Assembly (NCBI GenBank): GCA_022616555.1
Contig: JAKEEG010000056.1
Location: 1 to 64,000, forward strand
Reading direction: 5' to 3'
Source: Ignavibacteriota bacterium
GTDB lineage: Bacteria > Bacteroidota > Ignavibacteria > UBA10030
DNA: 64,000 bases
Both the position numbers and the translations under genes were made by a program. The notes beneath the pieces are model-generated. The model saw only the letters and a program-made list of their open reading frames with translations, was not told the origin of the DNA and made no database searches. Positions 49,576 through 51,633 of the stretch are shown here, piece after piece; within the stretch, counting starts at the first letter, position 1, and each line of letters starts with the position of its first letter.

Positions 49576-50727
49576 ATGTACAGCAGAACCCTTGTTCTAC
49601 TCGCTGCACTCGTATTGCTCGCGTTGCCGCTTGCGGCCCAAGAGCAAAATAACGGAGAGAATGGAGACGGAGAAAATCTCCAGGAGACACTCGGGCGGCT
49701 TTCACTCGACCTTGCGAAAGGATACGTCGGCCCGGTGGTCTCTGGCTTCGGCTCCGATTTGAACGCCGGTTGGTTCCGCCGCTCGCCCAGACCCACGTAC
49801 TTTGAATTCAATCTTGAGTTCGGTCTTGTGGCGATGGCCACAGTTTTCAAAGATGAGCACAAACATTTCAGTGCGGACGGAATCTTCCAGTTCGATTCCT
49901 CGCAAGCGGATAAACTCGTTTCGGAGACCATTGACTCGGAATACAGCAACCTGCCTCAAAACTATAGAGACGATGCTCGAAGAAAAATCATCGACCTGAT
50001 CCGTGGAAAAGATTTTACTGTCGGCGTCTCCGGCGCAACGATCATCGGCTCGAAAGACGACAGCATACGGGTGCGGTTCGGCGGTGGACAATTCACATTC
50101 CAAGACCAATTCGGGCAACAGCAAACAGTGACGATCCCGGATACGAGCCTCGCGCTGCCGGTCGGCGGATTGTTGGAAGACGCAAAGATCTTCGGCCGAC
50201 AAATGGTTCCTCTCGCCGCGCCTCAGGTCACGTTTGGAACGATCTTCGGAACAAATATATCCCTCCGGTACTTGCCGGAAGTTAAACTGAATGACGAGAT
50301 CGGCAAAACAAAATACGTTGGCTGGGGAATACAGCACAATCCAATGGTGTGGTTCGGAGAGGACTTCCTCCCACTCGATGTCTCTGTCAACTTCTACACG
50401 CAGACGCTGAGTGTCGGGTCATTGTTCGAAGCTAAAGCCACCACCTGGGGGGCGAGCGCCAGCAAACAACTGGGATGGAGCGCGCTCAACCTGACACCGT
50501 ATGTCGGGTTCATGTTTGAAAGTTCCACGCTGAAATTTTCCTACGACTACGAGCTTGATACACCAACGGGGCCGGTTCCGCAGAACGTCACCTTTGAAAT
50601 CGACGGAGAAAATTCATCTCGCCTCACGATGGGGATGAATGTCAAGCTGCTCTTCATCAACATTAATGCCGACTATAATATCGGTAAGTATAACTCTTTT
50701 ACCGCAGGCATGATGCTGAGTTTGTGA
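49576..50727 (+). CDS. DUF6588-family envelope protein
   Basis: A 383-aa exported protein. The signal peptide MYSRTLVLLAALVLLALPLAAQ precedes LGRLSLDLAKGYVGPVVSGFGSDLNAGWF, a signature I associate with DUF6588 proteins of Ignavibacteria and Bacteroidota. Repeated amphipathic strands (YVGWGIQHNPMVWFG, VSVNFYTQTLSVGSLFEAKATTWGASASKQLG, FTAGMMLSL at the end) and a C-terminal hydrophobic Leu suggest an outer-membrane beta-barrel. Function unknown. It has its own terminator. Confidence 0.85.
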   Translation: MYSRTLVLLAALVLLALPLAAQEQNNGENGDGENLQETLGRLSLDLAKGYVGPVVSGFGSDLNAGWFRRSPRPTYFEFNLEFGLVAMATVFKDEHKHFSADGIFQFDSSQADKLVSETIDSEYSNLPQNYRDDARRKIIDLIRGKDFTVGVSGATIIGSKDDSIRVRFGGGQFTFQDQFGQQQTVTIPDTSLALPVGGLLEDAKIFGRQMVPLAAPQVTFGTIFGTNISLRYLPEVKLNDEIGKTKYVGWGIQHNPMVWFGEDFLPLDVSVNFYTQTLSVGSLFEAKATTWGASASKQLGWSALNLTPYVGFMFESSTLKFSYDYELDTPTGPVPQNVTFEIDGENSSRLTMGMNVKLLFININADYNIGKYNSFTAGMMLSL

Positions 50728-50777
50728 TAAAGCAAAATACAGTCATTGTCGACGGTCTCCCGACCGAGACCAACACG

Positions 50778-50808
50778 GGGCGTTCTCATGAACGCCCTTC
50801 TTTTTTTA
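50778..50808 (+). terminator. Rho-independent terminator of the DUF6588 gene
   Basis: Perfect eight-base stem GGGCGTTC/GAACGCCC (50778-50785 and 50790-50797) with a TCAT loop and a TTCTTTTTTT tail, 50 bp past the stop codon. Confidence 0.88.
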
Positions 50809-50931
50809 TCCTCATCCCAGCGTATCCACTGTTGTATCGCTTTTCGCTCACATCTCATATCCCCTTAAAACCAGTTCATTTTCTTAATGTTTCCAGTGAT
50901 TTTACATTTTCAAATTTTATTTATTTTTTAC

Positions 50932-50960
50932 TTGACAATGTAATTTTACTATATTATATT
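50932..50960 (+). promoter_or_regulatory. Consensus sigma70 promoter without a protein gene
   Basis: TTGACA (50932-50937), 17-bp spacer, TATATT (50955-50960). No coding sequence with a ribosome site follows for almost 700 bp. It stands directly before the structured segment 50993-51248. Confidence 0.75.
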
Positions 50961-50966
50961 AATATA

Positions 50967-51248
50967 CATTAAATAAATAACATTGATTCTGACGGATTAC
51001 GCAAACGCTCGTACCCAGAACGGCCACCTGGGTTTTTCTGCGTATTCCGGACAAATCCGCGCAACATCATCCTTTGCAAAGGCGTCCCTCTCAGGGTCCT
51101 CTGTAGGGGCCTACGACACGTGGCATAGCGCTACGGGCTCTGGACTCTCTGGGTCCGACAGGCGGTAGCAACACTCTCCGCCGCGTCGCGCCGAGTGAAT
51201 TTATTTGTCGTCAACTTCTTCTTAGCCTCGGTGCGACGCCTTTTGCTT
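50967..51248 (+). ncRNA. Candidate structured non-coding RNA
   Basis: A roughly 280-nt transcript is predicted between the promoter at 50932 and a terminator-like hairpin. Stem 1: CGGATTACGCA (50993-51003) pairs with TGCGTATTCCG (51039-51049) with one mismatch and encloses the hairpin ACCCAG/CTGGGT (51013-51018/51028-51033). The middle part contains several further G+C-rich short inverted repeats. The 3' stem is 13 bp (51183-51195 with 51227-51239, one G-U) followed by CTTTTGCTT. The segment is G+C-rich inside an A+T-rich gap. No tmRNA, 6S, SRP or RNase P motif is recognised. It could instead be an eroded insertion-sequence remnant. Confidence 0.5.
51183..51248 (+). terminator. Terminator-like 13-bp stem at the 3' end of the candidate RNA
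   Basis: GCGTCGCGCCGAG (51183-51195) pairs with CTCGGTGCGACGC (51227-51239), 31-nt loop, then CTTTTGCTT. The long loop is unusual for a plain terminator, so it may also be a functional domain. Confidence 0.5.
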
Positions 51249-51349
51249 AGGATATTGAATAAAGTAAGGAAGAAACAAAGCAGCAGTAAACAGCAAGTAT
51301 GAAGTAGTTGAGTAACGACAAATACCGATAATGAGGCACGCGGGATGCT

Positions 51350-51370
51350 ATCCCCCTCTAAGAGGGGGAT
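51350..51370. repeat. ATCCCCCTCT/AGAGGGGGAT hairpin of the C-rich family
   Basis: Perfect inverted repeat of ten bases per arm with one central base, followed by AAAGGGGGAGG and a T-run. It belongs to the dispersed C-rich/G-rich family. With the GTCCCTTCGGGAC hairpin near 51445 it fills the rest of the 50728-51633 gap. Confidence 0.55.
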
Positions 51371-51633
51371 AAAGGGGGAGGTATTTTTTTAAACTTCGCG
51401 CTTCTGCTTAAGGCATCCCTCGGGAGTACTTTCTCCGAAGAAGTCCCTTCGGGACAGGAGAAGATATTCATCTTAGACTTGAAACTTTGGACTTTAAACC
51501 TGAGACTTCATTATGCGTCCGCCGGAATTTGCGTCGTACAACAAAAAAAATAGTACGCAGCGAACCGTTTTTTGTTGAACTCTTCCGCGCGAATATGTAT
51601 CTTAGGTGTAGTGTATTTCAGCTCAGGGGAACT

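Follow-up and report, generated by a model that had tools for sequence, protein, structure and literature searches.

A lineage-specific family of dispersed, self-promoted putative structured-RNA genes with exchangeable cores and a self-complementary hairpin apex in an Ignavibacteriota bacterium

We report a lineage-specific family of about 23 dispersed genes for a putative structured RNA in the genome of an Ignavibacteriota bacterium, each with a promoter of its own, whose products most likely act in trans as homodimers or small homo-oligomers, a reading that we hold with reasonable, though far from full, confidence. One copy lies in the window, the 64,000-nucleotide stretch of contig JAKEEG010000056.1 analyzed here, where a sequence-only reading had pointed to a hitherto undescribed structured RNA transcribed from a consensus promoter and closed by a terminator. 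Taken alone, this segment constitutes moderate evidence, as its 282-nt fold has a z of -2.74 and the promoter-like sites around it number two against 2.0 expected from shuffles; the matching copies in its own genome, which keep both promoter and fold, place it far above chance. In their light the undescribed structured RNA is supported, whereas the proposed length and terminator do not, and the 23-copy recurrence, the exchangeable parts and the self-complementary apex had been missed.

The genome searched was the window's own, a draft of 2.99 Mb in 99 contigs that is 98% complete. Positions 50900-51300 used as a query against it recovered 22 further matches, either to the promoter part or to the folded part, and sequence search, a covariance model and a search with the class D core together define 23 distinct dispersed intergenic loci. 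These display a common anatomy: an A+T-rich stretch, a promoter resembling TTGACA-16/17-TATATT, a 5' domain with a hairpin, the motif TCCTAAC, a G+C-rich core, the motif GTTAGGA, a purine-rich linker (AAAGAAAGTAGTAAGTAG...), and finally ACATAYC...GGTGTGT. The cores, about 100-335 nt long across the family, are of four types, distributed by contig as follows:

Class A, 11 copies: C9 (window), C64, C10, C6, C82, C31, C49, C71, C40, C21, C70
Class B, 8 copies: C26, C74, C43, C20, C5, C69, C87, C84
Class C, 2 copies: C30, C42, with two dissimilar short cores
Class D, 2 copies: C35, C85, with a core of about 335 nt

The unit on C20 reaches its contig end. The two copies on C31 (24926, minus strand, and 100216, plus strand) are identical, including their flanks, and were counted as one because this contig (center 62663 of 125326) appears to repeat itself in inverted orientation around its midpoint, an assembly artefact.

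The window copy and its immediate surroundings are laid out thus:

50777..50808, plus strand: terminator-like hairpin of the upstream DUF6588 gene, with a 9-bp stem and a T run as tail; a boundary lying outside the RNA unit
50903..50931, plus strand: A+T-rich stretch 5' of the promoter, common to the copies on C87, C26, C74 and C30
50932..50960, plus strand: promoter TTGACA-17-TATATT (TTGACA 50932-50937, 17 nt, TATATT 50955-50960)
50993..51049, plus strand: 5' hairpin, with an 11-bp outer stem (50993-51003/51039-51049, one mismatch) and the inner ACCCAG/CTGGGT hairpin (51013-51018/51028-51033, loop AACGGCCAC)
51019..51027, plus strand: apical loop AACGGCCAC of the 5' hairpin, the proposed kissing-loop site
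51070..51076, plus strand: closing stem, 5' half; TCCTTTG in the window, TCCTAAC in most copies
51081..51240, plus strand: class A core, matched by covariance model R1 with 161.5 bits and showing covariation
51081-51086/51235-51240, plus strand: core helix P1, GGCGTC with GACGCC
51088-51099/51142-51153, plus strand: core helix P2
51106-51111/51136-51141, plus strand: core helix P3
51113..51118, plus strand: 5' strand (ACGACA) of a proposed pseudoknot, with partner TGTCGT at 51206-51211
51119-51135, plus strand: core hairpin P3a
51157-51187, plus strand: core hairpin P4
51188-51195/51227-51234, plus strand: core helix P5, the inner 8 bp of a 13-bp stem (51183-51195/51227-51239)
51246..51252, plus strand: closing stem, 3' half; CTTAGGA in the window, GTTAGGA in sister copies
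51253..51319, plus strand: purine-rich linker GAATAAAGTAAGGAAGAAAC..., of similar character in sister copies
51320..51390, plus strand: probable 3' end, an ATCCCCC/GGGGGAT hairpin enclosed by AAATACC...GGTATTT, with seven T behind it

The promoter can be read directly in the sequence, as had been claimed; it agrees with the consensus at 11 of 12 positions, its TTGAC is kept in all 18 lined-up copies, and the promoter region aligns with that of the C87 copy at a z of 16.7. Many copies additionally display an imperfect dyad, AATGTAATTT...TACATTA, at the promoter. The 11-bp stem with one mismatch enclosing the ACCCAG/CTGGGT hairpin is likewise present. The 13-bp stem proposed to end the unit does exist, but only its inner 8 bp form a conserved helix, the outer part (GACGCC, 51235-51240) pairing in the family with GGCGTC at 51081-51086. 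The CTTTTGCTT that follows it was misread as the tail of a terminator; CTTAGGA (51246-51252) instead supplies the closing stem with its 3' half. Hence, a unit of about 280 nt ending near 51246 is not supported, and the RNA unit of the window probably extends to about 51390. Its 3' end, where sister copies have ACATAYC...GGTGTGT in place of AAATACC...GGTATTT, is the least certain part and a weakly supported one, the minimum-energy fold of this candidate forming the inner hairpin only. Downstream of the unit, at 51478-51515, the window carries a low-complexity GACTTGAAACTTTGGACTTTAAACCTGAGACTTC string.

The structure of the class A core was drawn from nine sequences and comprises seven helices, namely P1, P2, P3, P3a, P4, P5 and the proposed pseudoknot. 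Standard pairs make up 93.8% of its pairs, both sides have changed in 15 of 56 pairs, a count that none of 500 shuffles attains (7.1 +/- 1.8), and shifting the partners by one column reduces the pairing to 46% or less. Greater weight attaches to the model R1, made from class A only, which finds the class B cores over its full length (E = 1e-6 to 5e-9), because the class A structure was drawn from the very sequences on which its pair statistics were computed. Across the 19 copies of classes A and B, in an alignment that leans towards the model to which it was fitted, both sides have changed in 24 of 50 pairs, a number reached by none of 500 shuffles, and 97 cells stand against 29.7 in shuffles; these shuffle statistics are optimistic, since the copies are related to each other. 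Thus, compensatory base changes at homologous loci, which had been named beforehand as the test by which the structured RNA might be refuted, are found among the paralogues. The same alignment retains G-U pairs at many helix positions, which favors an RNA of this strand over DNA. The pseudoknot ACGACA/TGTCGT does not vary among the nine class A copies aligned and is not apparent in class B cores, and is thus offered as a proposal compatible with the class A sequences. The closing stem forms five of its seven pairs in the window copy and six to seven in sister copies, and in C85 (TTCCTAAG/CTTAGGAA) it displays a C-G to G-C exchange.

The apex of the 5' hairpin sets itself apart by self-complementarity. 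In a 13-nt window at this apex, with the expectation taken from dinucleotide shuffles, palindromes of at least 6 nt occur in 17 of 22 copies against 6.4 expected, and those of at least 8 nt in 11 of 22 against 1.8, figures that the relatedness of the copies renders optimistic. Counting palindromes in the unpaired loop only gives 6/22 against 2.1; this count is low because the apex palindromes fold on themselves, and the apex-window test was used instead. Control hairpins of the core in the same RNAs carry a palindrome in 2/19 (P3a) and 3/19 (P4) cases. The palindromes themselves differ, including GTGGCCAC (C87), AGAGCTCT (C71), CGAGCTCG, GCGGCCGC, ATGGCCAT, CTAGCTAG, GGGCCC, CTGCAG and ACGCGT, the last in the AACGCGTA loop of C85, a copy beyond those 22. 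The palindrome of the window copy is only 4 nt long, the GGCC at the center of its apical loop (51022-51025), and C82 lacks one. Several unrelated palindromes at one site point to the pairing of that site with itself and are hard to explain otherwise; hence, we posit that the RNA products probably pair with themselves via the apex. In the OLE RNA, a loop tetranucleotide that may be GGCC, GAUC or AGCU served as evidence for a symmetric kissing contact between the subunits of its dimer seen by cryo-EM (PMC12286853); the sequences of the apical loop in the present family switch between palindromes likewise.

Alignment z-scores computed separately for the promoter region, the 5' domain and the core reveal that the similarities of the three are uncoupled between copies. 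The class D copies on C35 and C85 share a core (z 44) but neither promoter (-1.5) nor 5' domain (0.3), and their BLAST similarity starts right at the core and extends into the linker. Conversely, C49 (class A) and C85 (class D) share a promoter (z 18.5; core 2.8), as do C30 (class C) and C87 (class B; promoter z 16.9, core 0.2). The 5' domain is common to C42 (class C), C26 (class B) and C71 (class A) at z 12-16 against 2-6 for their cores, the pair C42 and C26 scoring 16.2 and 3.4, respectively. Parts have therefore been exchanged between loci, frequently with the closing stem as the border, and recombination or gene conversion would account for this. In C49 (L015) and C85 (L292) a second consensus promoter, TTGACAAATACCATTTCCCGGTATATATTGG in C49, lies about 150-190 bp upstream of the RNA-proximal one, with TGTAA/TTACA repeats between the two.

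The family is neither a protein gene nor a leader. Codon-scored gene calls place no coding ORF over the RNA unit in any of 22 copies, in keeping with the independent, protein-free structured unit originally proposed. With codon-scored genes, 14 of 20 upstream genes share the strand of the RNA, a ratio of 14 to 6 that does not reach significance, as do 12 of 18 downstream genes, which indicates the lack of a fixed target gene; an orientation bias of the upstream gene, apparent at first, was gone once such genes were used. The copies have no neighbor gene in common, and no Pfam family occurs in more than three of 75 neighboring proteins. These proteins are of ordinary kinds, among them signal peptidase, thymidylate synthase, glycosyltransferases and ABC transporters, and their commonest Pfam families include no transposase. 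Por_Secre_tail also occurs among them, in keeping with the FCB group named in the sequence-only reading. As the genome, moreover, has neither a reverse transcriptase nor a TnpB zinc domain, the earlier alternative of an eroded insertion-element end finds no support. In the window, the upstream neighbor encodes a DUF6588 protein (49576-50724), with Mfd (TRCF domain) beyond it, and the downstream one an AAA_11/AAA_12 helicase. Another family of intergenic repeats, in which CCGAAATCGARGNGGTGTGCGCG precedes a long palindrome (for example GCATCGAAATT...AATTTCGATGC), was observed at L025:3745-3975, C40:11582-11786, C26:10005-10219 and C64:6118-6302 and on C35, C30, C80, C54, C1 and C21. It often adjoins an RNA copy and also stands alone, and related units occur four times behind a copy in L151.

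All homologues recovered are paralogues in this one draft genome. Rfam 15 at gathering thresholds has no match in the window and, even at E<=1, nothing relevant in the window segment or in nine sister loci; the lack of a match to known RNA families noted in the sequence-only reading is thus borne out. Neither R1 nor R2 matches anything in the 31 other genomes of the taxonomic family or, with few candidates scored per genome, in 390 genomes of the class and 395 of the phylum, sets that hold no second genome of the same genus. Phage and plasmid records likewise gave no match. Four matches of a 16-base core string in viral contigs were rejected, R1 scoring them as isolated short matches, and so were at least 80 loci hit by a loose pattern in a large collection of genome contigs, which are chance matches among which R1 finds nothing credible. 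Outside its own genome, the class D core yielded only a short CCTGCCTACCGGCAGG-type hairpin recurring in the class. A CCTGCCTACCGGCAGGCAGG-type hairpin, present in this genome (L026, around 2186-2207) and in other genomes of the class, is a small separate repeat. The rarity of the RNA family thus holds for the genomes searched, not in general, and literature searches found no description of it.

The main rival is that the copies represent a non-autonomous mobile repeat, akin to MITEs or the bcr repeats, whose fold aids its own spread or shields its neighbors against it, with no benefit to the host; we consider this possible, though clearly the less likely reading. It would fit the 23 dispersed intergenic copies, their confinement to one genome among those searched, their varying neighbors, the other repeat that often adjoins them, and both the copy number and the part-swapping, and no orthologue shows that the loci are kept by selection. 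The repeats bcr1-bcr18 of the Bacillus cereus group are likewise lineage-specific, intergenic and dispersed, some with a conserved RNA fold and transcribed, and, in the passages describing them, bcr1-bcr3 are termed MITE-like and transcription is given for about half of the bcr copies overall (PMC3446304). Their sequences are unrelated to the present family, and the same passages, in which they appear as MITE-like elements or parts of UTRs, mention no shared promoter, swappable cores or palindromic loop (PMC3446304). Against a mobile repeat, no terminal inverted repeats or target duplications were seen by eye, the limits of similarity vary from one pair of copies to another, the promoter belongs to the unit, parts swap inside the unit rather than only as whole copies, and the divergence of copies that keep their fold argues for a working RNA. 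Nevertheless, the two readings are not exclusive, as a working RNA gene can also spread.

That the conserved entity is DNA, either protein-binding dyads or folded single-stranded DNA such as recombination sites of the integron attC kind, is improbable. Dyads do occur in the promoter and at the hairpin apex, and TCCTAAC/GTTAGGA resembles attC core boxes; but the copies are single and dispersed rather than in arrays, the promoter is always on one side, the retained G-U pairs speak for RNA, and the recombinase genes of the genome are of the XerC/D type only, none scoring over the integron-integrase cut-off. An integron attC site was accordingly rejected, there being neither integron integrase nor cassette array. 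One XerC/XerD-type recombinase gene is split between C32 (L161:2-307) and C50 (L162:2-733), the ends of which overlap.

The HEARO or IscB omega RNAs show that structured RNAs can be multi-copy and dispersed; nevertheless, descent from an insertion element or a role as the guide RNA of an IscB/TnpB-type transposon is very improbable, since the TnpB zinc domain (PF07282), the nuclease mark searched for, is absent from the genome, the units lack an ORF, Rfam gives no HEARO match even at E<=1, and the RNA would begin with a hairpin of the unit itself rather than with a guide from flanking DNA. Least probable of all is a part of a retron, group II intron or diversity-generating retroelement, in spite of the structured RNA with inverted-repeat ends, as no reverse transcriptase (PF00078) is found in the 98%-complete genome, as against three positives among 14 control genomes, and no Rfam model matches.

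OLE, GOLLD and ROOL are large structured bacterial RNAs of unknown job that turned out to be homo-oligomers. With them the present family would share kissing contacts between copies of a structured RNA (PMC12286853), but it matches none of their Rfam models, its cores measure only about 100-335 nt, and, whereas each of the three follows one conserved design, some 23 copies here differ in loop, promoter and core. The SmelA075/SmelA099 group of trans-encoded sRNAs in Rhizobiales likewise has several paralogues per genome built from hairpin modules; unlike the present family, it is shared across the order, its modules repeat one hairpin rather than being exchangeable cores, and a block of ribosome binding sites has been proposed for it (PMC3927594).

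Returning to the family as a set of RNA genes, we propose that a sigma-70-type promoter belonging to each copy would drive the synthesis of a structured RNA some 300-600 nt long. From its 5' end, this would comprise the hairpin whose apex is self-complementary, the closing stem with the exchangeable folded core that it presents, the purine-rich stretch in single-stranded form, and a 3' hairpin as the transcript end, which in the window may lie near 51390 at the T run after GGTATTT. Copies of one transcript would pair through the palindromic apex loop, the core would carry the activity or bind a protein, and recombination between loci would both disperse the copies and exchange their parts. A more speculative extension, which we think unlikely, is that promoters, palindromic dimerization loops and cores are interchangeable parts of a combinatorial set, in which pairing would be confined to RNAs of one kind and would exclude their siblings; if true, one genome would hold several distinct RNA homo-oligomers that differ in their cores. 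The present case illustrates the expansion and recombination of a structured RNA family inside one lineage, and indicates that such families escape annotation when no other sequenced genus carries them. Moreover, the genome appears to hold some two dozen related RNAs whose loop, promoter and core vary independently of one another, a natural mix-and-match set with which each part may be tested.
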